From a virus: DNA of 34,105 bases. How positions within the stretch are numbered: the stretch's first letter is position 1; every line of letters begins with the position of its first letter. The DNA lies in the IMG/VR virus record IMGVR_UViG_3300021973_000001, positions 1 through 34,105 of that record. One strand, written 5' to 3'. The notes under the pieces were generated by a model. The model was not told the origin of the DNA and ran no database searches. It saw nothing but the letters and a program-made list of their open reading frames with translations. The translations under genes were made by a program, and so were the position numbers. This document shows positions 2,186-27,597 of this stretch, in pieces.

Positions 2186-2679
2186 AAACATCGGCCTTAG
2201 TATCTTACACTGGGCGTCCTAAAAACGACGAGTTTATAACTCCGCCTGAGGCAGTTTATCCCATTCTGCCTTATCTCCCTACCGATAAGATATACTGGGA
2301 GTGTACCGACAACGGAAATTCCGGTATTACAAGGGTACTAAAGGAAAATGGACTCAGAGTTGTGTCTACGGGATTTGACTTCCTAAAGTATACTCCCGAT
2401 TTTCATTTTGACATTATAATTACCAATCCGCCTTTTAGCCTGAAGGACGCCTTCCTAGAGCGTGCCTATGAACTCGGTAAACCTTTCGCTTTTCTCCTTC
2501 CTTTGCACTCCCTCGAGGGAGTCAGACGCGGGAGGTTGTTCAGAAAATACGGTCTTCAATTGCTCGTTCTGGATAGGAGAGTCAGATTTACATCTGAAAA
2601 GAACGGGCCGTGGTTTAACGTGTCCTGGTTTTGCTGGAAGTTGTTACCTAAAGACTTGATTTTTGTGTCATTATTATAA
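2182..2679 (+). CDS. Small DNA N6-adenine methyltransferase-like protein
   Basis: The 165-residue product resembles short phage adenine methyltransferases. NDEFITPPEAV (residues 15-25) matches the usual TPP-containing N-terminus, and NPPF (residues 82-85), preceded by the hydrophobic strand DIII, is the catalytic motif IV. The SAM-binding motif I region (WECTDNGNSGI, residues 39-49) is degenerate compared with the usual acidic/Gly-rich loop. The protein also lacks an obvious target-recognition domain, so activity is uncertain. The start overlaps the portal stop by 4 bases (ATGA), implying coupled translation in the 388-2679 operon. It could methylate phage DNA to avoid host restriction, or be a non-catalytic relative. 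Confidence 0.65.
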   Translation: MKTSALVSYTGRPKNDEFITPPEAVYPILPYLPTDKIYWECTDNGNSGITRVLKENGLRVVSTGFDFLKYTPDFHFDIIITNPPFSLKDAFLERAYELGKPFAFLLPLHSLEGVRRGRLFRKYGLQLLVLDRRVRFTSEKNGPWFNVSWFCWKLLPKDLIFVSLL

Positions 2680-2688
2680 TCGTTTGTT

Positions 2689-2711
2689 GGGGGCTTAAAA
2701 CACCCGCCCCC
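2689..2711 (+). terminator. Possible terminator after the portal operon
   Basis: GGGGGC (2689-2694) and GCCCCC (2706-2711) can form a 6-bp GC stem, followed on the + strand by GCTTTATTTT. It lies between the convergent genes ending at 2679 and 2695 and overlaps the end of the latter. The loop is 11 bases and the T-run is interrupted, so support is moderate. Confidence 0.45.
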
Positions 2712-3447
2712 GCTTTATTTTCACCCATTCGTAGTCTTTTATGTTGAATTCCTTTTTGTCTTGTTCTGTTATCTGTTCCCTTGCGACTGTATACTTAAGC
2801 GGCAACTTGGTTATTCTTCTCCGTAGTTTTGCTCCGAGTTTTACCTCATCCTGTAGGATTCCAGGTACTGTTCCCGTTTTGGCTATGTATATTACGTCCT
2901 GCACCGTAACTTCAAATAGATCCGGATTTTCAAGAATGTCCTCATAGGTAAATACTCTTATCTCTACAGTCCCTAGGCGTGGGCGAAGGTTTGCAGGTTT
3001 GTATTTTCGTTTTAGTTTGGTAGATTTCAAGGCACCTACTACGTGTTTTCCGAACAACGCTCTCCTGTCGTATCCGAATAGCTTTTTCCTACCTAAAACA
3101 AAATTTATCAGAATTTCTTCCAGCCTGGGATTTGGTTCAGATATACCGACGTGAAACTGAAAGGCGGAGAAAACAATGTGTCCGTCTATTATTCTGGCGA
3201 TTGTTCTTGGATTAGGTCTGATTCCGTATTTTCTTTCTATCAATTTAACTGCCTTTTCGTATTCTTTCAGTATTCTGTCTGCAACGTTCCGTGCGGGGAT
3301 AATCGTTCTGTATTCTATTATGAACCTATAATGTTCTACTCCCCAGTCTGAGGTGGGGAAGGGCGGGTTTACCCATTCACACGCTCGTCCCGTATACAGT
3401 TCTAGTTCCAATCCTATCCAGGATTCCGATAGATATGTAATGTGCAT
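2695..3447 (-). CDS. Amidoligase-like protein (COOH-NH2 ligase fold)
   Basis: The 250-residue product has the signature of phage amidoligases with a glutamine-synthetase-like fold, which are predicted to use ATP to join a carboxylate to an amine. Visible elements are GLELEL (residues 12-17, metal-binding acidic strand), FQFHVGIS with His99, a Lys/Arg-rich segment around 133-155, and VEIRVF (161-166), which matches the family's ExR strand. The start is the ATG at 3447, preceded by GAAAGGGG, rather than a TTG at 3462. The first 71 codons overlap the end of the upstream - strand gene. It is the last gene of the - strand cluster and faces the portal operon. The substrate cannot be inferred. Confidence 0.65.
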   Translation of the reverse strand: MHITYLSESWIGLELELYTGRACEWVNPPFPTSDWGVEHYRFIIEYRTIIPARNVADRILKEYEKAVKLIERKYGIRPNPRTIARIIDGHIVFSAFQFHVGISEPNPRLEEILINFVLGRKKLFGYDRRALFGKHVVGALKSTKLKRKYKPANLRPRLGTVEIRVFTYEDILENPDLFEVTVQDVIYIAKTGTVPGILQDEVKLGAKLRRRITKLPLKYTVAREQITEQDKKEFNIKDYEWVKIKRGRVF

Positions 3448-8034: not shown

Positions 8035-8258
8035 TCTTCTTCGTCAGTTTCTTCCCATTCAGCCCCGAGGCTTATAGCCCTGTCTACAAGGTTGAGACAA
8101 AACTGTTGGAAGCAGTAACGGCACAGGTAGAGGAAGTCCCCCTGCAAGGTGAGGTTCCTTGACTGTCCTTCCGCCCTGTGCCAGACGTCCAATGTGAAGT
8201 GGTCATCGGTACAATCCGCCCCGCAGAAATCGCAGAGAATACGTATCTCTCTACCCAT
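8025..8258 (-). CDS. Small zinc-binding protein translated after RNA polymerase
   Basis: The 77-residue product has Cys9/Cys12 (CDFC), Cys16 and Cys46/Cys49 (CRYC), plus Cys54, in the arrangement of a treble-clef or ribbon zinc finger. The C-terminus is acidic. The ATG at 8258 overlaps the end of the polymerase gene (ATGGGTAG), with no separate good Shine-Dalgarno, so translation is probably coupled to it. The overlap suggests a job with the polymerase, for example as an accessory or promoter-recognition factor. That is inference, and a nuclease or restriction-related finger is also possible. Confidence 0.7.
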   Translation of the reverse strand: MGREIRILCDFCGADCTDDHFTLDVWHRAEGQSRNLTLQGDFLYLCRYCFQQFCLNLVDRAISLGAEWEETDEEDLV

Positions 8259-11200
8259 CACTTTCAATTATGACGGGTGTGCTCCAGTCTATCTTCCTCG
8301 CTTGTAGCGCCTGTTTGAATTCGGCGTAGGTTTTGAACCTTACAGGCTCCTTCCTGTCGGGTGTGGTTCCCAGGGTAAGTCCTACCAGAGCCTCGTGGGA
8401 AGGAGCGTAAATCAAGTCCCTTGGATTCCTGAGATGCGGAGCTATTCTGCTCGGTAGCATTCTTTTGGCATCCTCTATAGCCTGGGGTGTTATCGGAACA
8501 TGGACGTTTACCGTGTCTCCATCTAGGTCCCCCGCAAGACCTTTGGCTATAAGGAGGTTTATGTCAACCGTCTTTTTCTTGTGGATTTTAGGGTACAAGG
8601 CTACCAGGTTGTATTTCCACAGAGACGGCGCACGGTTGATTATTATGGGAATTTCTTTCATTTTTTGCTCCAGTATCTCCCTGGCTATCGGGTCTCTCTC
8701 CTCTATCATTTTCTTGGCCTTGGCTATGTTATATCCGCGTTTCTTTAGTTCCGAAAGGATATGCGGGTTGTAGAGTTTCCAGGCCATATCTTCAGGAATC
8801 CCAGCCTCGTCTATATGGAGGTCTGTACTCGTCGAAAGCGTAGCCCTTCCTGCAGGAGCCTGGAGCTTTTTGAGGACTTTCGCTTGGTAGTAGCTTTCTT
8901 TAGGTGCCTTTCCTTGACCTACCACGTAGGATATGAATCCTTTTATCCCCCTTGCCTTAGCGTAAGGAGACTGAGGTTCGGCAAGACCGAACAGAGCTTT
9001 TACCGTGCGGTACAAGGTCTCTCCTTCTTCCTGCAAGGCATCTTCCGTCAGGCCTGCACCTTTTAGGTCTCTTATCGCCTGGTTTGCAAGGAGAACATCC
9101 GTGTAGAGATAGTTCGAATCGTGAACAAGGACTCTCTTTTCATCCTGCGGGATTATAGGTCTGAATTTAGGCGGAATTACAGGAATGTAGTCCAGAACGT
9201 AGGCCTCGGCGAGGTTCTTGAATCCTGCCTGTTTTAGTGCGCGAAGGACTTTCTTCTTGTCGGGGTCTTTTTCGGTTTCAAGGAGCTTGTCTACTTCCAT
9301 CCTGGCGAGGAGTTCTTTGGTTTTCTTCCCGTACAGAGGTGTTCCTTCAGGCAGGAACATCTTTACCACGTCCTCGAATGTTGGATTTACTATCGGTATT
9401 TCCAGCTTGATATGTGCCCACTTTTCTCCCGATAGTCCTCCCGTTATTGCAGGATCAAAAAGACCGTCCTTTTCGGGATTGAGGTCGAACTTGAGTTTGG
9501 AAGGTTTTTTGATTTCTCCATTGGAAATGGCAAGAATATCCTTGTTGGTCATGGGCAGAAGCTGAAGTTCGTCGCCCTTCTTTTCTACGTTTATCCCTGC
9601 GGCCTTAAGTTTGCTAAAGAACCTTTGTGTTGCAAACGTCGGTCTGGGAGCCGGAAGAGGTTTGCCGAGGTAAACCGCATTCCAAAAGTCCTCAGCCTTT
9701 GTAGCCTTGAACGTGGCCATTTCCTGCAGCAGGTTCTTTACGTTGTGGGATACCAGAGAGTAGAATTCCATCACTCCGATAGCTTTGGCTCCCTCTTCTC
9801 CGCCCTTGGCAGGTCTTAGGTCTACGTCGTATTCTCCTTCTTCACTTCTGGCCGAGAAGTTAAAGTCCGTCATTTTGTTCAATTTCAGAACGTAAAGCGG
9901 TCCTGTCGTTACAACCTTCTTCTTTCCGTCTACCGGGTCGTAGAGTTCTTCTTCTGCGGTTATTCCGTGTTTTTTCATCAGTTTTTCCAGCTCTTCGTAT
10001 GTATTTTTGTCGTACCAGCCGAATGCTGGAACCTTGAACTGTTTGCCCGTTTTCTTGGCTATTTTCGCTGCCACGAGTTCGTGAAGCTGCCCGGGATTTA
10101 TCCTTGATGGGACTGACAGTGGGGTGATTATCATATCCACGGGAGTTCCATCCTTCTTCCTCGGCATTTGGTCATCGGGCAGGATTTTGGTTATTGTTCC
10201 TTTACCGCCGTGGACGATTGTTAGTTTGTCTCCTTCTTTTGCAGGCTCTAAGGTTTTTACGGTCACTCTCAGCGTCTTTCCGTCAAAGGAGACGTCCGTT
10301 ACTTCTCCTTCTACGTCTTTTTCCCACACTTCAACTTCAGGCTTATAGCTCCTAACGAGAGATTTAGACAACCTACCGAGGATAACGTCTTCAGGAGTGG
10401 GGACTGCTTTGGACAGGGCTACGAAAATTGGGTCCCCTTTTTTCAGGATAACTCCTTTCTTTACTATTCCGTTTTCATCCAGCTTGTCGAGTTGTTCTTT
10501 CGTGAAATGCGTCGGGAAATACGACCTGAACTTCTCTTTCCCCAGGACGTGCTTGTCCTTGGAAAACTCAAAATCAATCTTGTACATGTGCGTTGAAGCG
10601 AGTTTCTTGGCGGCGGACTCAGAAATTACAATTCCGTCTTCAGTGTTCAGTCCGTGGTAGGGCATATAGGCGACTTCAAGGTTGACACCGAGGGCTACCT
10701 GTCCTGTTTTCTCATCCGTGTAGTTGGAAATTGCAAGTTTTTCTCCCGCCTTTACTTTCTGTCCTTTTTTTACTACCGGAGTGTGGTGCAGGAAGGTCTT
10801 TCTCGCCAGCGGATAGTTGTGGTACAGGTTAAACTCATATTTCTTCCCGCTTTTTCCTTTCATTGTTATCTTTTTGTCCGAAACGTGCAGGATTTCTCCG
10901 TCTTCGGGGGCGTGTATGTCGGTGAATTTAGATAAGATTTCAGTGAGAGGTGTGTCTCCTAATGTAGGAACTACAAGCGGGGCTTCTCTTTTGGCGAGCG
11001 GGACTGCCTGAGTAAACATCTTTGCAGCCATCTGCGCCCTGTTTCCATGGTCTGTATTGAGGAAAGGAACGAGGTTGGTTGTTATTGAAAACATCCTGGC
11101 CGGGTCTGGAAGGTAGTAATCAGGCTTCCCTTTTGTTATTTTCCCCCTGTAGATTACAACGTCAGAGTCCTTGGAAAATCCGACCTTCTTGTCCCACAGA

Positions 11201-12447
11201 TCAAGGGGAGAGAGGTATTCTTCTTCCCCCGTTTTGGCATTTATGAATTTCTGCCTGGGATAACCGTCGTCTCCGAAAATCGTACCTATTGCCATCCTTA
11301 GGTCCACGCCTGCTTTTTCAGATTCTGAGGTACGGATCAGGTCTATAAATCCGGTGTACGTCGGATGAACATCCCGTATTTCCATCGGAATGGCGTGCGT
11401 TGAGCCAATACCGCCTTCGCCCATGTAGGTTATTTTCGATAGGAGTTCAAGGATTTCAATCGGATTGTTGTGCTCGGGATTGGAAGTGAGAGAGGAAGTT
11501 GTAATGAATTCCCTCAATGGTTTGTTCAGATCAAAAGTAGAAGGCAATTTTCCTTTATTTTGGGCTACTTTGGTCGCAAGTTTGGCCCGTTCAAGGCGAG
11601 ACCTTTTTATTAGGGCTTCACGGATCAGCTTTTCTGCGGGAATGAATTCTTTGAATACCAGGGCATTTCTGTCGTCTTCCTCTGCCTCGCCTCTGGATAG
11701 TTTTATCAGTTTTCTTACAGCCTGACGGATGGTCTCGGGAGTTACCTTCTCGTAGCTCCTTCCGAGGGTGATTCTGGTAGTGTTCGGGTCGAGTTTCGTG
11801 TCCTTCAGTCCGGCTACGAATTCTTTTATTTTCGTTCCCTTCGTTTTTTTCATTTTCTCGGCTTTTTCGAAGTTTACGGTGGCAAGGTCTTTTCCGAGGA
11901 GTTCTGATATCTCACTATCCTTAAATCCCAACTCCCGCAGCACAGGGACTATCGGGAGTTTGCCGCCTTTCTTCAGGACTACGTAAATCTCTCCTGTATT
12001 TGGATTAGCCTCTATGGAGAAGTTCTCTCCTTTTGCCAGGTTGAATTGGACTTCAGGTTCTCCAGATTGTTTAAATCTGGCGTATACCCCGGGTCTCATT
12101 CTGACCTGGTTAAATACTACATATTCCGTTCCGTCCACAACCAGAGACAAGTGCGGAGTGAAGATAGGGACTTTAAGGAGGGTCTTTCTTTTTTGGTCTA
12201 TTACTTCGCCGGTCTCTTTGTCTATCACTTTAATAGTAGCTTTTACTGGAACGTCTATAGATTTTTTCTTCAGTACTGCTTCTTTTACTTCTTCAGGGGA
12301 GACGCTGTCCGGGAGTTTGTAGCTTACATCTTCCAGTCTAATTTCGTATTTCCCTGCGTCAATCGGGAACATTTCTTTTAGGGCTGCTTCTATTTCCTGC
12401 ATTAAATGCTCGTTTAACTTGTCGGGGGTTGCGAGTGTCGGCCTCAT
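8251..12447 (-). CDS. RNA polymerase beta subunit fused to N-terminal half of beta-prime
   Basis: The 1398-residue product catalyses template-directed RNA synthesis with the product of 22683-24398. The beta part shows GTEYVVFNQVRMRPGVYA, GLNTEDGIVISES, a HGGKGTITKILP segment and DGTPVDMIITP...VPSRINPGQLHE. The order of these matches bacterial beta. Beta-prime-like sequence begins near residue 1080 with YIPVIPPKFRPIIPQDE. Then come a switch-2-like region, IIINRAPSLWKYN and the catalytic DLDGD (residues 1307-1311, NADFDGD in bacteria), followed by VNVHVPITPQAIEDA. It ends about 87 residues after the active site, roughly where the polypeptide resumes in the second gene. The N-terminal beta-prime zinc ribbon is absent. 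ATG 12447 is preferred because the divergent palindrome 12454-12473 ends 6 bases from it; ATG 12468 is possible. Confidence 0.9.
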   Translation of the reverse strand: MRPTLATPDKLNEHLMQEIEAALKEMFPIDAGKYEIRLEDVSYKLPDSVSPEEVKEAVLKKKSIDVPVKATIKVIDKETGEVIDQKRKTLLKVPIFTPHLSLVVDGTEYVVFNQVRMRPGVYARFKQSGEPEVQFNLAKGENFSIEANPNTGEIYVVLKKGGKLPIVPVLRELGFKDSEISELLGKDLATVNFEKAEKMKKTKGTKIKEFVAGLKDTKLDPNTTRITLGRSYEKVTPETIRQAVRKLIKLSRGEAEEDDRNALVFKEFIPAEKLIREALIKRSRLERAKLATKVAQNKGKLPSTFDLNKPLREFITTSSLTSNPEHNNPIEILELLSKITYMGEGGIGSTHAIPMEIRDVHPTYTGFIDLIRTSESEKAGVDLRMAIGTIFGDDGYPRQKFINAKTGEEEYLSPLDLWDKKVGFSKDSDVVIYRGKITKGKPDYYLPDPARMFSITTNLVPFLNTDHGNRAQMAAKMFTQAVPLAKREAPLVVPTLGDTPLTEILSKFTDIHAPEDGEILHVSDKKITMKGKSGKKYEFNLYHNYPLARKTFLHHTPVVKKGQKVKAGEKLAISNYTDEKTGQVALGVNLEVAYMPYHGLNTEDGIVISESAAKKLASTHMYKIDFEFSKDKHVLGKEKFRSYFPTHFTKEQLDKLDENGIVKKGVILKKGDPIFVALSKAVPTPEDVILGRLSKSLVRSYKPEVEVWEKDVEGEVTDVSFDGKTLRVTVKTLEPAKEGDKLTIVHGGKGTITKILPDDQMPRKKDGTPVDMIITPLSVPSRINPGQLHELVAAKIAKKTGKQFKVPAFGWYDKNTYEELEKLMKKHGITAEEELYDPVDGKKKVVTTGPLYVLKLNKMTDFNFSARSEEGEYDVDLRPAKGGEEGAKAIGVMEFYSLVSHNVKNLLQEMATFKATKAEDFWNAVYLGKPLPAPRPTFATQRFFSKLKAAGINVEKKGDELQLLPMTNKDILAISNGEIKKPSKLKFDLNPEKDGLFDPAITGGLSGEKWAHIKLEIPIVNPTFEDVVKMFLPEGTPLYGKKTKELLARMEVDKLLETEKDPDKKKVLRALKQAGFKNLAEAYVLDYIPVIPPKFRPIIPQDEKRVLVHDSNYLYTDVLLANQAIRDLKGAGLTEDALQEEGETLYRTVKALFGLAEPQSPYAKARGIKGFISYVVGQGKAPKESYYQAKVLKKLQAPAGRATLSTSTDLHIDEAGIPEDMAWKLYNPHILSELKKRGYNIAKAKKMIEERDPIAREILEQKMKEIPIIINRAPSLWKYNLVALYPKIHKKKTVDINLLIAKGLAGDLDGDTVNVHVPITPQAIEDAKRMLPSRIAPHLRNPRDLIYAPSHEALVGLTLGTTPDRKEPVRFKTYAEFKQALQARKIDWSTPVIIESDG

Positions 12448-12453
12448 CACACA

Positions 12454-12473
12454 GAATTGTGAAATCACAATTC
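12454..12473. promoter_or_regulatory. Perfect palindrome centred between divergent starts
   Basis: GAATTGTGAAATCACAATTC has 8-bp perfect arms around AAAT. It lies exactly 6 bases from the polymerase start (12447, - strand) and 6 bases from the start at 12480 (+ strand). Both genes therefore have CACAATTC immediately before them. It could be an operator or back-to-back short promoters. No other room for regulatory sequence exists between these genes. Confidence 0.65.
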
Positions 12474-20191: not shown

Positions 20192-21715
20192 GTGAAACCG
20201 CACGAGTATGCCTACAACACAGTTCTACTGAAAGGAAAACGCCTTGACTTCAAGACATTCTGTATGCATAAAGAAACCTACGATGCCCTGAAAGAAAGAA
20301 CGATTCTCCTAAAATGTTCCAGGCAGGTAGGAAAATCCGTCCTGGAAGCCGTGGCTTTGAAAATCCTAGCGGAGCTAATTCCGTATTTTAATTCCTTGCA
20401 CGTTTCACCACGCCAACAACAAAGGTCAAGATTCGTGAAGGACAAGTTGAACCCAGTTTTGCTGGACTCGCCCATATCAAGAAACCTTCTTGTAGCCAAT
20501 AACGAGGAGTACAAGGAATTTAGAAATGGGTCCAAAATCTTTCTCTCCTACGCTCAGGATGACCCTGACAGAATAAGAGGTATTTCTGCAGACGCCGTGA
20601 TGTACGACGAGGTTCAAGACATAATATACGACGTCATTCCTGTAATAAATGAATGTTTGGCTGAATCTCCATATGCTAAGAAAATATACGCAGGAACTCC
20701 CAAATCTACAGACAATACGATAGAATACCTGTGGCAGCAGTCAAAACAACTCGAATGGTCGGTAAAATGTGAAGCCTGCGGCAAGACCAATGTCCCGTTG
20801 GAAGGGGAGTTTATGGAGAAAATGATAGGGAAAAACGGTCCGATATGCGGATACTGCGGAAAACCCATAGACCCCTGGCAAGGGTTTTGGCTGGAAACTA
20901 ATCCAAACGGAAGATACAAGGGGTTCCACATTCCGAGATTAATGATCAAATCTGTAGATGAAAACAAGAGAAAACTGCAGTGGGAAGAATTGCTCTACAA
21001 GTACGAGACCTATCCTAAGGACAAGTTTTACAACGAAGTCTTAGGTGTCTCCGTCCCAGTGGGAGCAATGCCTATCAGCCGTGCCGAATTGGACGCCGTG
21101 ATGGAAGACTACGACCCGGTACCAACCGCCAGGCCTCAATACGGAATTGAAAGGCTGTTTATGGGGATCGACTGGGGTATAACCGCCACCAACTCCTTTA
21201 CGGTTGTTACCATAGCCGGTATGGATAGAAACGGGAAGTTTAGAGTTGTATTTGCTAAAAAATATACCAGCACAAATATCCTTTCCTACATAGATGAGAT
21301 AATAGAGCTATTCCACAAATTCGGTGTTGCCCTGGTAGGTGCGGACTTCGGCGCCGGGGCTACTAACAATCAGATCCTGAAACAACGGCTGGGAGAGGAG
21401 AGAGTAATAGAGTTCTTCTACACGGCCCAAAAAGAGCAGGTCCGAGTTAGCAAGGGGAAGTTCTTACTCGACCGCACGATGGCTATAGATGAAATTCTCG
21501 TTCTGATCAAGAAAAAACTCATTGCCTTTCCGTCCAGAATACGGGAGGTGGTGTATGATTTCCTTTCCTTACGCGAAGAGATGACCAAATCGGGCAGAAA
21601 AATATACAACCACAACCCGACAGAACCTGACGATTTCGTCCACTCTCTTGTATTTGCATACCAGGCCTATAAGTTAGATTCCACGTTCTCCAGACCTATG
21701 CTATTGGATATATGA
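20192..21715 (+). CDS. terL: Terminase large subunit (ATPase and nuclease)
   Basis: The 507-residue product packages phage DNA and cuts concatemers. The ATPase domain has a Walker A-like CSRQVGKS (residues 42-49), Walker B VMYDE (136-140), and a probable coupling motif AGTPKS (167-172). An inserted zinc knuckle (Cys193, Cys196, Cys219, Cys222) precedes the C-terminal RNase H-like nuclease, with Asp327 (GIDWG), Asp385 (GADFG) and Asp480/Asp481. Length and order fit TerL. The start is GTG with no Shine-Dalgarno; AAAATTCC lies 7 bases before it. No small terminase is adjacent. Its last codons run into the terminal ATATATCA palindrome of repeat copy B. Confidence 0.92.
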   Translation: MKPHEYAYNTVLLKGKRLDFKTFCMHKETYDALKERTILLKCSRQVGKSVLEAVALKILAELIPYFNSLHVSPRQQQRSRFVKDKLNPVLLDSPISRNLLVANNEEYKEFRNGSKIFLSYAQDDPDRIRGISADAVMYDEVQDIIYDVIPVINECLAESPYAKKIYAGTPKSTDNTIEYLWQQSKQLEWSVKCEACGKTNVPLEGEFMEKMIGKNGPICGYCGKPIDPWQGFWLETNPNGRYKGFHIPRLMIKSVDENKRKLQWEELLYKYETYPKDKFYNEVLGVSVPVGAMPISRAELDAVMEDYDPVPTARPQYGIERLFMGIDWGITATNSFTVVTIAGMDRNGKFRVVFAKKYTSTNILSYIDEIIELFHKFGVALVGADFGAGATNNQILKQRLGEERVIEFFYTAQKEQVRVSKGKFLLDRTMAIDEILVLIKKKLIAFPSRIREVVYDFLSLREEMTKSGRKIYNHNPTEPDDFVHSLVFAYQAYKLDSTFSRPMLLDI

Positions 21716-22099
21716 TATATATCATAATTTATCCAAGTTAGCACCTACTAACTTTCAGCCCAAACCCTTGTATTTCAACGGAAAGCCCTAAATTGGGGCC
21801 TGAAATGTAAGTGAGTACTTATTTAATCTCAAAATCACGGACATTTTGAGATTGGCCTCTAGACTTACAGCCCCAAAGCGTAGAAAAATCTAACAATAAC
21901 AGACTCAACCCCCTTGATCCCTCTCAGGCCACAACATAGATCATAATTTTTACTGCCTGAAAATCAAGGCCTTGAGGCATCTCGGACTGTGTCCTGAGAG
22001 GGATCAATCCGGACCGAAAACCATAAATAAAAATTTCGAAAATTTTTTTGCTTCCACTTCAGGACCCTGTATTAAGGTCTCATTTTCAGGAAGCGAAAA

Positions 22100-22120
22100 T
22101 TGATCCCTCTGAGGGATCAA
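22100..22120. repeat. GATCCCTC palindrome, left
   Basis: TTGATCCCTC, one base, then GAGGGATCAA: perfect 10-bp arms. The element is mirrored at 22258-22278. GATCCCTC on either strand occurs 11 times by my count in the three repeat copies and the centre. I did not notice it elsewhere in the window. Confidence 0.85.
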
Positions 22121-22175
22121 ACCAGGTCTCCGCCTTGTGCCCCAACGAGTTGGTCCTGATCCCTCCCGGGCCACC

Positions 22176-22193
22176 CGGTATTGGAAAATACCG
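22176..22193. repeat. Central hairpin of the giant palindrome
   Basis: CGGTATT, GGAA, AATACCG: a perfect 7-bp stem with a GNRA-type loop at the symmetry centre. A second small hairpin, CCAAC-GA-GTTGG, lies at 22142-22153 and has no clear mirror partner. Confidence 0.85.
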
Positions 22194-22257
22194 AGGCTGA
22201 CACTGTGCCCTGAGAGGGGTCAGCCCGAAAGCCTTGAACCGCACGGGTTGGCGCAGA

Positions 22258-22278
22258 TTGATCCCTCAGAGGGATCAA
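22258..22278. repeat. GATCCCTC palindrome, right
   Basis: TTGATCCCTC, one base, then GAGGGATCAA: the mirror copy of the element at 22100-22120. Confidence 0.85.
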
Positions 22279-22682
22279 TTTTCGTTCCCTGAAAATAGGA
22301 CCTTAATACCGGGGCCTGAAGTGTGAGCAAAAAAATTTTCGAAATTTTTATTTATGGTTTTCGGTCCGGATTGATCCCTCTCAGGACACAGTCCGAGATG
22401 CCTCAAGGCCTTGATTTTCAGGCAGTATAAATTATGATTTATGTTGTGGCCTGAGAGGGATCAAGGGGGTTGAGTCTGTTATTGTTAGATTTTTCTACGC
22501 CTTGGGGCTGTAAGTCTAGAGGCCAATCTCAAAATGTCCGTGATTTTGAGATTAAATAAGTACTCACTTACATTTCAGGCCCCAATTTCGGACTATCCAT
22601 TGAAATACAAGGGTTTGGGCTAAAAGTTAGTGGGTACTAACTTGGATAAATTATGATATATATCATATATACACAATTCAAT

Positions 22683-24398
22683 ATGATGAAAACCGCCCTG
22701 CAGGTATATTTGGAGCACGAATACGGATTTAACCTGGACGACCCTCGTAATTTAAAACAGGAGCTGCTCAAGCTGTGGCAGAAGGACCCGCAAAAGTTTG
22801 CCGACCTCATAACGGAGCTAAAGCGATTAGGAGACAGGATAGCCACGGAAAAAGGATTTACTATACGGTATAGAGATATAAAACCCATCTCCGACCTAAA
22901 ACCTAAACGCGAGCTTTCCGTAGAAGAAGCTATAAAACTACAAAACGAACTTCCCAAAAAATTAGTAGATAGGCTGCTGAAAGAAGGGAATTCAATTGGA
23001 TTTATGATAGCCTCAAAAGCCCGTGGTAAACCAAATCAGGCTATGCAAATGCTGGTATCTCCTATTCTGTTTTCAGACGCGAGGAATAAACCGTTCCCAT
23101 TTACTATAAAACGGGCCTTCTCCGAGGGCTTACGCCCCGAAGAGTATTTCGCTTCATCGGTAGGTGCCCGTAAGGGAATAGTTTCTACCCAGCTTGCAAC
23201 GTCAGAACCCGGAGCCCTATCAAAAGAGCTCCTTGCTAATGTTGCCCATCTTACGGTAACCGAAGTAGACTGTGGTACAACAAAAGGCCTTAAATTCCCC
23301 GTAGATTCGGATTTCGTCCTGGATAGGTATCTTGCTCACGACCACGGAAAGTACAAGAGAAATACCCTGGTAACCCCGGAAATCAGGGACTCTATGAAAA
23401 AGGACGGAATAAAAGAAGTTGAAGTCAGAACACCTCTGACTTGTCAGGCTAAAGACGGAGTGTGTTCCTACTGTCTCGGCCCTGTAGGTGATAGAAAGCT
23501 GCCCGAGGTAGGTTTCAACGCGGGAGTTGTTTTAGGACAGACTATAACAGAACCCCTTACTCAGTTTGTCCTGTCCTTCAAGCATACAGGTGGTCTTGCA
23601 AACGTATCCCGTGGTGGAGCATTCGAGCAGGTGAGAAGACTATTTCATATGCCGAAAAACTTCGCGGGAAAGGCAGTCCTCGCGGAAGTGAGCGGAAAAG
23701 TAGAGAAAATAGAAAAGTCCCCTCTCGGTGGTTGGTATGTGTATATCAAAGGAAAACGTCATTACATTCCCTCTTCCTCTAAACCTACCGTACAGGTTGG
23801 AGATACTGTGGAAAAGGGAGACATAATCAGCGAGGGAATCGCAAGCCCGCAAGAAATAGCTAAAAAGAAAGGACTGTTTGAGGCAAGACAATACATAGCA
23901 CAGGCATTACATAACATCTACAAGGCCCAAGGTATAGATATCCATCCCAAGGCCTTCGAGACCGTTGCCCGTGCCCTTACGAAATACGTCCGAGTTGTCG
24001 ACCCAGGTTCTACCGACCTGGTAAAAGGAGAAGTTTTTGACGTGGACGGACTGAGGAAAATACTGGGAGATAAGATAAAATCCGTTCCCAGGCGCCAGGC
24101 GAAGGGAAAAGTCCTTGCTCGGGACTATGGTAAATACCCTGTAGGAACTGTTGTAACCAAAGATATGCTGAAAGATCTACCTCAGACTGTAGAAGTAATA
24201 GACGCTGACGTAAAGCTGGAGCCTGAAATACCGCCATTGCAAAAAGCCCACCTTTACACTTCCGATTGGTTGGTAGGAATGTCAAGGTCAGAATTAAAAC
24301 GTGTCCTCCTTGAAGGCGCCTGGTATGGAAAGACTTCCAAGTTCAAATGGTACCACCCCATTCCGAGGTGGATTATGGGCACCTTCCAAGAAGGCTGA
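22683..24398 (+). CDS. RNA polymerase beta-prime subunit, C-terminal half
   Basis: The 571-residue product completes the polymerase active centre with the 8251-12447 product. Landmarks in bacterial order are a helical N-terminal part (IRYRDIKPIS), the bridge-helix region EGLRPEEYFASSVGARKG (148-165), a zinc site with Cys197 (DCGT), Cys254, Cys261 and Cys264 in bacterial spacing, and the trigger-loop motif QTITEPLTQFVLSFKHTGG (286-304) with His301. It ends near the expected C-terminus (GMSRSELKRVLLEGAWYGKTSKFKWY). The start is ATG 22683, just after CACAATTCAAT; 22686 is possible. No Shine-Dalgarno is seen, and repeat copy C lies immediately upstream. The stop overlaps the convergent gene by 26 bases. 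Confidence 0.9.
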   Translation: MMKTALQVYLEHEYGFNLDDPRNLKQELLKLWQKDPQKFADLITELKRLGDRIATEKGFTIRYRDIKPISDLKPKRELSVEEAIKLQNELPKKLVDRLLKEGNSIGFMIASKARGKPNQAMQMLVSPILFSDARNKPFPFTIKRAFSEGLRPEEYFASSVGARKGIVSTQLATSEPGALSKELLANVAHLTVTEVDCGTTKGLKFPVDSDFVLDRYLAHDHGKYKRNTLVTPEIRDSMKKDGIKEVEVRTPLTCQAKDGVCSYCLGPVGDRKLPEVGFNAGVVLGQTITEPLTQFVLSFKHTGGLANVSRGGAFEQVRRLFHMPKNFAGKAVLAEVSGKVEKIEKSPLGGWYVYIKGKRHYIPSSSKPTVQVGDTVEKGDIISEGIASPQEIAKKKGLFEARQYIAQALHNIYKAQGIDIHPKAFETVARALTKYVRVVDPGSTDLVKGEVFDVDGLRKILGDKIKSVPRRQAKGKVLARDYGKYPVGTVVTKDMLKDLPQTVEVIDADVKLEPEIPPLQKAHLYTSDWLVGMSRSELKRVLLEGAWYGKTSKFKWYHPIPRWIMGTFQEG

Positions 24399-25179: not shown

Positions 25180-25470
25180 ATGAAGAGGCTGGTACTGTTT
25201 CTTCTTACCAAGATTGACGTGAAGGAAGTTTTGGCTTACGTTCTTGAATGGTTGATAGGAATTTCAAGGGATAAGATTTACGAGCTGTTGGATAGGGCTT
25301 TTGACTACGCCCTTGAGGCTGATAGGAAGTACGGACATGGTAGAGGAAGGGAAAAACTGGAGTATGTCAAAAGCAAGCTAAAAGAGATTTACCCTGATGT
25401 TGCCGAGTACATTCTCAATCTTATAATCGAAATAGCTGTAACCTATCTAAAGAAAAGCGTCAGGAAGTAG
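25180..25470 (+). CDS. Small protein, possibly holin-like (LLH type)
   Basis: The 96-residue product has a hydrophobic N-terminus (MKRLVLFLLTKIDVKEVLAYVLEWLIGI). Its C-terminal half (GREKLEYVKSKLKEIYPDV, then AEYILNLIIEIAVTYLKK) resembles phage holins of the LLH superfamily, where a Lys-rich helix is followed by an (I/L)IEAAV-type helix. The N-terminal segment is interrupted by charged residues and is not a clean transmembrane helix, so the call is weak. A lysis role would fit the nearby transglycosylase-like gene at 28402. CACAATTT lies 11 bases before the ATG. The stop overlaps the convergent amidoligase gene. Confidence 0.45.
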   Translation: MKRLVLFLLTKIDVKEVLAYVLEWLIGISRDKIYELLDRAFDYALEADRKYGHGRGREKLEYVKSKLKEIYPDVAEYILNLIIEIAVTYLKKSVRK

Positions 25471-26512
25471 AAACAAGGAATTCTTCTATCAGGGCTTCTT
25501 CAATATCTTTGGCCTTGGTTTTCATGCGCTCTATTTTCTTTTGGTCTATTTCAACGAATCCATTAGTTCTAATGTAGGCTACAATTCTGGCTACCTCTTC
25601 TACGAACTCTTCTGCCAGCTCTTGGTCTTCTAACAGTACGGCTGGCGGTTCTCTCCATTCAAATCCTCCGTGCCTGCCGTGTTTTAGCCTGTATTCCCGC
25701 GGTAATCCGTATCCCTGCGTCGTCCTGATTTTCTGGGACTCTAAATTTTCGTACACGGGGCTGAGGCATTTGTGCAATGCAGACACGTATGCATACGCTT
25801 TCCTTTCAGGTATTTGTTCGTCTTCACTTATGTGTATGTGAAAACCTACCGGTAGATAATCTTCTTCATCCCACCCGTCCCGTAGTATTGTGCCGTGAAA
25901 GGATAGATGAGTGATTATTATGTGCGGCTCCGGAGGGATTTTCGCGACCAGCTTGTATATTCTAGGTATAAGGTTTTTGGCGTTCATAAGGCTAACTGGT
26001 TTGGGTCTTACTTCTAACAGAACCGGCCATCCGTCCGTTCCTATTTTTCCTTCTTCTGTATGGATGGTATCGCCTATAATCAACTCTCCACTTACGACTA
26101 CATTTTCAATTACATCTACAGCAACGCATTCTGGGTCTGCTCCTATTTTGCCGTTCCAATCGGGGGGATTTTCCGGTAAAAGGTCAAGATGGACCATCAG
26201 AGCGTGCATATAAGCTATTGGTATGTTAGCAGGCCACAGGACGAATTTAGGATCTTCTATTCTGATTCCGCCTATCGGTTGTCCGTATAAGGTGAAGACT
26301 ACGTTCATCCTTTTAATCCTGTTTTTGTTCAGCTGTATGTCAACTGGATTGGGCGGATTGATTAGAAGGTCGTCCAAGGATACTGTGTAGGAATTTATCG
26401 CAGGTTTAGTTTTGAGGGGAACTCGCCTACAAATTCTGTACCCTCTCTCTGATATTTTTTCCAGTATGGTTTCTTTAGACACAAAGGCGTATTTCGTATC
26501 TACATACAACAT
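25460..26512 (-). CDS. COOH-NH2 ligase type 2-like amidoligase with extra N-terminal domain
   Basis: The 350-residue product has GADPEC (124-129), GTDGW (158-162), LEVRPKP (166-172), GFHIHIS (223-229) and GGFEWREPP (282-290). This is the acidic, ExR, HxH and ER set of type 2 phage amidoligases. Residues 1-118 are an extra domain shared with the neighbour at 26524-27597, containing QPIGGIRIEDPKFVLWPA. It probably forms an amide bond using ATP. The extra domain may bind the substrate (inference). The start at 26512 follows AGGAGG, and TTGTTCC lies further upstream. It is a tandem duplicate of the next gene and is the fourth of five amidoligase-like genes in the window. Confidence 0.75.
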   Translation of the reverse strand: MLYVDTKYAFVSKETILEKISERGYRICRRVPLKTKPAINSYTVSLDDLLINPPNPVDIQLNKNRIKRMNVVFTLYGQPIGGIRIEDPKFVLWPANIPIAYMHALMVHLDLLPENPPDWNGKIGADPECVAVDVIENVVVSGELIIGDTIHTEEGKIGTDGWPVLLEVRPKPVSLMNAKNLIPRIYKLVAKIPPEPHIIITHLSFHGTILRDGWDEEDYLPVGFHIHISEDEQIPERKAYAYVSALHKCLSPVYENLESQKIRTTQGYGLPREYRLKHGRHGGFEWREPPAVLLEDQELAEEFVEEVARIVAYIRTNGFVEIDQKKIERMKTKAKDIEEALIEEFLVSTS

Positions 26513-26523
26513 AAGCAGACCTC

Positions 26524-27597
26524 CTAGGCGGGAACAAGCTCAAGTTCCATTTTGGCGAAATTTTCTATCTCTTCGGCTTTTCTACGCAGTCTTTTTATTT
26601 CGTTTTCGTTCATTATCGTGAAGCCGTTCGCTCTGGTATACGCGACTACGAACGCTGCGAGTCTCAGGTATTCTTTTGCGAGTTTTGCGGACTCCAGGAT
26701 TACCGCGGGGGTTTCTCTCCATTCAAATCCACCGTGTATTTCCCACTGCATTCTGTAGTCTACAGGAATTCCATAGTCACGGGACTCTCTCACTAGCTGT
26801 GATTTCAGGTTGTTGAATATGGGGCGCAGGGTAGAGCATAGTGCTTCTGCCAGTGCTGAGGCTTCTTGTTCTGGCATATCTCTGTCGTCTTCGTATGGCT
26901 GGAAGTGGATGTGGAATCCTACAGGGACGTCATCAATTCTCGGCTCTTCACTGTCATCTTCTATTTCCATTTCTTCCAGTGAGAGGAAGGTTAGCGTTTC
27001 TGTTGGAACAGCGTCCGCCAGTCTATACAGCCTTTCCACGAGTTCATCTGTCTCGGTAATGTGCACAGGACGGGGTCTTAATTCTATCAGTACGTTCCAC
27101 CCGTCCAGACCTACTTCTCCGTCGGGAGTTTCGATATGGTCGTCGATCACGAGCGTTCCGTGTATTGCCCTTCTCTTTATCGGGCTATAAGCCAGGCATT
27201 CTACATCTGCTCCTATTGTCCCTTCCCATTTTGGTGGTCTTTCGGGTAGGACTCCGAGATGAACCATTATTGCCCGCAGTGTTGCTATCGGGGCGTCGGT
27301 GGGCCAGAGGACGAATTTCGGTTCTTCTGTTCTTATTCCGCCTATTGGTCTCCCGCCGAGCGTGAGGACGATGTTAAATCTTCTTACCCTGTTGGGAGTG
27401 AGAGAGAATTTAGTCCTCGGGAGGTATTCTTCGTCGGCGATGATGTCGTTCAGTTCTACGTACCGGATTTCGTTGGCAGGGGGAGCTTTTTTAGGGATTT
27501 TCCTGAAAATCTCGTACCCGGCGTCCTTGATGTCTGATATAATTTCGTCCTTGCTAAGTAGGCTATATTGGGTGTCTACAAAGTAAATCCTCTGCAT
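26524..27597 (-). CDS. COOH-NH2 ligase type 2-like amidoligase, paralogue
   Basis: The 357-residue product shares full-length architecture with the 25460-26512 product. Its N-terminal domain has RPIGGIRTEEPKFVLWPT (83-100). The ligase part has GADVEC (129-134), GLDGW (163-167), LRPRP (173-177), GFHIHF (227-232) and GGFEWRETP (289-297). All family motifs are retained in both copies, so both are probably active and may differ in substrate. The start at 27597 follows TTGGGAGGG. A TGGTATAAAA box and AAATTGTTACC lie upstream, predicting a leader of about 35 bases. The 5-prime end overlaps the tail of the upstream small gene by 35 bases. Confidence 0.75.
   Translation of the reverse strand: MQRIYFVDTQYSLLSKDEIISDIKDAGYEIFRKIPKKAPPANEIRYVELNDIIADEEYLPRTKFSLTPNRVRRFNIVLTLGGRPIGGIRTEEPKFVLWPTDAPIATLRAIMVHLGVLPERPPKWEGTIGADVECLAYSPIKRRAIHGTLVIDDHIETPDGEVGLDGWNVLIELRPRPVHITETDELVERLYRLADAVPTETLTFLSLEEMEIEDDSEEPRIDDVPVGFHIHFQPYEDDRDMPEQEASALAEALCSTLRPIFNNLKSQLVRESRDYGIPVDYRMQWEIHGGFEWRETPAVILESAKLAKEYLRLAAFVVAYTRANGFTIMNENEIKRLRRKAEEIENFAKMELELVPA

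Follow-up and report, generated by a model that had tools for sequence, protein, structure and literature searches.

The window (the whole 34,105-nucleotide stretch of viral DNA analysed here) carries, between 677 and 32677, genes for the portal (+ strand), RNA polymerase beta (−), the terminase large subunit TerL (+), the C-terminal part of RNA polymerase beta-prime (+) and the sheath (−). The polymerase is split: beta and the N-terminal part of beta-prime are fused (8251-12468, −) and the C-terminal part is a separate gene (22653-24398, +), the two matching phrog_25354 at different regions. Between TerL (20192-21715, +) and this C-terminal gene lies a long palindrome that occupies the whole gap: the TerL stop codon falls inside its left edge, and the likely beta-prime start, at 22683, is 10 bp past its right edge. 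A first-pass annotation of the same DNA had named both flanking genes correctly. Further along, an adjacent and apparently paralogous gene pair (25460-27597) gives weak, sub-threshold matches to the COOH-NH2 ligase family (PF14395). Rfam and tRNA searches of the whole window found nothing.

An inverted-repeat search and a comparison of the arms place the left arm at 21705-22120 and the right arm at 22258-22673 (416 nt each, 95% complementary, 19 mismatches), with a 137-bp spacer between them (22121-22257) and a total length of 969 bp; no feature within the palindrome is assigned to a strand. Gapped comparison of the full 969 bp with its own reverse complement gives an 88.8% match. The predicted single-strand DNA fold is −486.8 kcal/mol, compared with −105 ± 6 after dinucleotide shuffling, and the palindrome score is 1156 bits, against 187 bits for the runner-up across 3.0 Mb of relatives. 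The symmetry is well above chance and the long palindrome is real. The first-pass annotation, which had reported a palindrome of about 960 bp at 21711-22672 with inverted arms of about 350 bases, was within a few bases of these limits; its term "near-perfect" slightly overstates a symmetry that is otherwise borne out. The central 7-bp hairpin that it described was also found (CGGTATT at 22176-22182, AATACCG at 22187-22193), in a spacer that holds a degenerate TGATCCCTC inverted pair as well (22156-22223).

What had been overlooked was the internal build of the arms and a third copy of them. Each arm is made up of hairpins, and one 416-nt arm alone folds at z = −7.7. The left arm contains a nested inverted unit, TTGATCCCTCTCAGGCCACA...TGTGTCCTGAGAGGGATCAA (21914-22007; 20-bp arms, 54-nt gap), which recurs in the right arm (22371-22464) and in the third copy (52-145). 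A hairpin of the form AATCTCAAAAT-loop-ATTTTGAGATT lies at 21825-21853, with mirrors at 22525-22553 and 206-234, and a short self-complementary form, TTGATCCCTCTGAGGGATCAA, occupies the inner end of the left arm (22100-22120) and is mirrored at 22258-22278. With up to 3 mismatches allowed, TTGATCCCTCTCAGG occurs 12 times in the window, where 1.15 occurrences are expected; all 12 are inside copies of the element and are set as inverted pairs. The centre of the palindrome is GC-rich, and AT-rich runs sit inside each arm.

The third arm copy (1-354, + strand) is 96% identical to the left arm and 95% to the right, and is truncated by the contig end. Its outer flank is unique sequence followed by the portal gene. 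The three arms are on average 96% alike, diverge from one another to a roughly equal extent, and share a common outer boundary beyond which their flanks are unrelated. A third arm with a different flank makes this a dispersed repeat that has been cut by the end of the contig. The window thus holds two loci (1-354 and 21705-22673) about 22 kb apart, a single interval within 34 kb, and both are intergenic, overlapping ORFs of more than 100 aa by never more than 60 bp. The two flanks of the palindrome are different genes and the flank of the third arm differs again, which speaks against one earlier suggestion, a fused junction of hairpin-ended genomes. A hairpin telomere or inverted-terminal-repeat junction was likewise rejected: one junction per genome would be expected, against the unlike flanks and third copy found here. 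N15-like protelomerase sites have long inverted symmetry and occur once per genome; they are far shorter and single, whereas here there are several loci with unlike flanks.

The possibility of an assembly chimera, also raised in the first-pass annotation, has to be divided in two. A fold-back chimera is disfavoured by the 5% difference between the arms, by the unique spacer, and by the comparable dispersed elements of two isolates, Salmonella phage Arash and Vibrio phage D69. The other form, in which a TerL-side copy and a beta-prime-side copy were wrongly joined, keeps a small probability because the gene order and orientation of the window are unlike those of all relatives, most of which have the portal, beta and beta-prime C genes all pointing the same way; the contig also breaks within the third copy. 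The 19 sites at which the arms differ and the unique spacer speak against a mis-join as well, as do palindromes at single loci in D69 and in a related IMG/VR phage, G012, and on balance this is the least probable of the readings considered here. It bears mostly on the junction as assembled; the palindromic elements would remain.

Proteins of the window place it among known phages. TerL, portal and the RNA polymerase proteins share about 30-36% identity with Arash and with Vibrio phages D69, D148 and D181. Single-sequence queries with TerL and beta-prime found no relative in IMG/VR; the RNA polymerase beta protein did, and its alignment then recovered 80 loci there. In the RNA polymerase tree the window groups with G035, D69, G012, Arash, L131 and G013 (support 0.984). 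Members of this clade range from 78 kb (G035) through 172 kb (G012), 176 kb (G013) and 180.8 kb (Arash) to 187 kb (D69), and, judged by the Arash/D69-type relatives, the window is one piece of a genome that probably measures 140-200 kb. G013 (IMGVR_UViG_3300031134_000002), a contig with identical 127-bp ends that is syntenic with Arash, is probably an uncultured close relative of the proposed Arashvirus genus.

By self-comparison, each of the clade's four long genomes has a dispersed repeat family. Arash carries five copies, each about 210 bp long, near 26.7, 66.5, 100.2, 138.6 and 173.4 kb; G013 has five of about 230 bp, D69 three of about 330 bp and G012 three of about 250-330 bp, and most copies are intergenic. 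These elements have a core of 65-80% AT flanked on both sides by inverted repeats; in Arash and G013 the core contains TATA-like runs and the orientation is fixed. The three elements of D69 and of G012 are the three strongest palindromes in their respective genomes, and those of G013 show weak inverted symmetry (fold z from +0.7 to −4.2). Several small annotated ORFs of D69 (VPHD69_0094, 0231, 0232, 0322 and 0323; L053, L054, L055) lie inside its palindromic elements and are probably spurious. Families of at least three long repeats spread over tens of kb were found in none of the 12 contigs longer than 85 kb outside the clade (G001, G002, G007-G011, G014-G016, G024 and G026), which had local or coding repeats in several cases and lone weak distant pairs in G014 and G015; contigs too short for this comparison (G003-G006, G029, G033 and G034) were not counted as absences. 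G035 had no palindrome in the 24 kb examined.

The window palindrome itself shows no detectable sequence likeness to these families. Exact and gapped patterns of the arm DNA gave no matches in viral and bacterial collections, and blastn against phages gave none. Its identity to the other elements of the clade is 39-52%, none of it above the random level of about 49.5%, and between-genome element identity is low across the whole clade. Compared with the window copy, the Arash repeats and D69 palindromes are shorter and less symmetric; they have an asymmetric AT-rich centre that the window element lacks. The likeness lies in their belonging to one clade and in being multi-copy, mostly intergenic and armed with inverted repeats. 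From its clade, copy number, intergenic site, inverted structure and place upstream of beta-prime C, we infer that the window copy belongs with them.

The elements are evenly spaced in three of the four long genomes. Monte Carlo values of P(CV ≤ observed) are 4.9e-5 for Arash, 5.0e-5 for G013 and 0.007 for D69, and 0.097, not significant, for G012. Because Arash and G013 are syntenic, with orthologous positions for all five elements, and D69 and G012 have common neighbours at two elements, these amount to two independent cases of evenness, one strong and one moderate. Sequence conservation follows a different pattern from position: copies within a genome have a mean identity of 91% in Arash and 79% in G013, and between the two genomes identity is 54-57% for orthologous pairs and 56% for non-orthologous pairs (random stretches, 49.5 ± 1.6). 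Since each copy resembles the others in its own genome far more closely than its counterpart at the same position in the sister genome, these comparisons indicate that the positions are old and the sequences are homogenised genome by genome, that is, concerted evolution. Both observations bear on the idea that the palindrome is a non-autonomous mobile repeat, similar to a MITE or REPIN, spreading into intergenic sites of the phage. Such a repeat would account for three arms with a common outer boundary and unrelated flanks, for several intergenic copies, and for the nested TTGATCCCTCTCAGG inverted units. It fits poorly with Arash positions that are all orthologous in G013 even as the sequences evolve in concert, and with even spacing in three genomes (both observations concern the relatives and not the window copy), and a pattern search found the nested unit nowhere in the viral and bacterial collections. 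We consider a mobile repeat unlikely.

The genes around the elements offer further clues. Convergent, divergent and co-directional contexts all occur, which argues against promoters or terminators. ORFs of more than 100 aa, possibly spurious, overlap three of the G013 elements and one in Arash. In D69 and G012, one element adjoins an exonuclease gene whose neighbour is a primase-like gene; in Arash, genes for ligase, exonuclease and primase lie 2-5 kb away from one element. Arash element 4 and G013 element 2 are 0.7-0.9 kb upstream of beta-prime C, and the window copy is directly upstream of it. In phage N4, hairpin-structured DNA is used by phage RNA polymerase promoters, and the elements could similarly be early promoters or enhancers that serve, via hairpin DNA, the phage's own and possibly virion-carried RNA polymerase. 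The clade encodes a split multi-subunit enzyme, the AT-rich core with its TATA-like runs, and an orientation that is fixed in both Arash and G013, would suit such a role, and Gp206 (RNAP) accounts for the most spectra in the Arash particle proteome (PMC10585845). Set against this, some elements occupy gaps between convergent genes (at 138.5 kb in Arash and 43.5 kb in G013), copies so few and separated by tens of kb cannot serve the many gene blocks, and the families are absent from relatives with the same kind of polymerase. A promoter role is improbable.

In three of four genomes, two of these three being syntenic with each other, strand-corrected GC skew at four-fold sites switches weakly where the elements lie (rotation P for the four 0.02, 0.03, 0.04 and 0.76, uncorrected), and the switch has the same sign at 12 of 16 elements. 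This sign is opposite to the usual leading-strand G excess, and AT skew disagrees. A switch of this sign would fit the convergence of replication forks, and together with the even spacing and the closeness of elements to TerL in the window, D69 and G012 it brings up a mechanical reading, in which the elements are placed at intervals because they arrest forks, fold or segregate the phage chromosome, or serve its packaging. Neither a protein nor a precedent for such sites was found in this analysis, and there are five sites whereas packaging needs one; mechanical sites of this type are a rather poor prospect.

A role in replication remains the best supported of the options listed in the first-pass annotation, with the amendment that the palindrome would be one of several spaced copies and not a single origin. 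We put at just under one half (roughly 0.48) the probability that the window palindrome belongs to a set of cis-acting replication-origin elements, mostly intergenic and several per genome, that are spaced around the genomes of the clade. A fuller proposal, which we hold more tentatively, is that these phages start copying their genomes at three to five, or even more, palindromic iteron origins that are evenly spaced, evolve in concert and have a layout convergent with the homologous regions (hrs) of baculoviruses, the window having a near-perfect 1-kb version. A hypothetical phage initiator would recognise the inverted iteron-like repeats flanking an AT-rich stretch, melt that stretch or drive hairpin extrusion, and then load the replisome, so that a genome of 150-190 kb could be copied from three to five starts, perhaps more in the window phage. 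Concerted evolution would follow if copies recombine with one another and co-evolve with the initiator. The inverted repeats of the window phage would have grown into near-complete arms, with the AT-rich runs within each.

The closest working analogues are the baculovirus hrs and the oriS and oriL of herpes simplex virus (HSV). The hrs are dispersed AT-rich imperfect palindromes, several per genome and symmetrically placed, that are bound by the viral protein IE-1 and have been assayed as origins; it was their symmetric placement, AT content and palindromic build that first led to the proposal that they are origins (PMC6669502). The phage elements are also dispersed, palindromic and present several times per genome. 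The hrs belong to baculoviruses and are built of palindromes of about 30 bp, whereas the units here are 200-970 bp long and found in tailed phages. In HSV, inverted initiator boxes flank an AT-rich spacer, hairpins form, and there are three redundant origins (PMC12543377); clade elements likewise have inverted repeats around an AT-rich centre. HSV differs in virus realm and hosts, and the window palindrome is much longer with a centre that is not AT-rich. Common descent is claimed in neither case.

A search of open papers found no earlier description of such elements in these viruses, and none came to light in the Arash paper when it was searched for the words "repeat", "origin" and "replication". 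If the origin reading is true, evenly spaced and concertedly evolving intergenic elements would represent an unusual replicon organisation for tailed phages. It would also show that a phage genome can maintain a kilobase-scale palindrome, a point of interest for how these phages deal with hairpin-cutting host nucleases. Since Arash is a cultured phage, the origin idea is testable at once.

Hairpin clusters also occur elsewhere among the relatives. Those of G010, G007, G016 and G009 were considered as single origins beside replication genes, and their positions gave no support to this. G010 (IMGVR_UViG_3300028914_000059) has four strong palindromes within about 1 kb at a single locus (65633-66676). 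A more distant relative, L038 (G006), carries a lone 370-bp palindrome at 2666-3035 that is 69% self-complementary.
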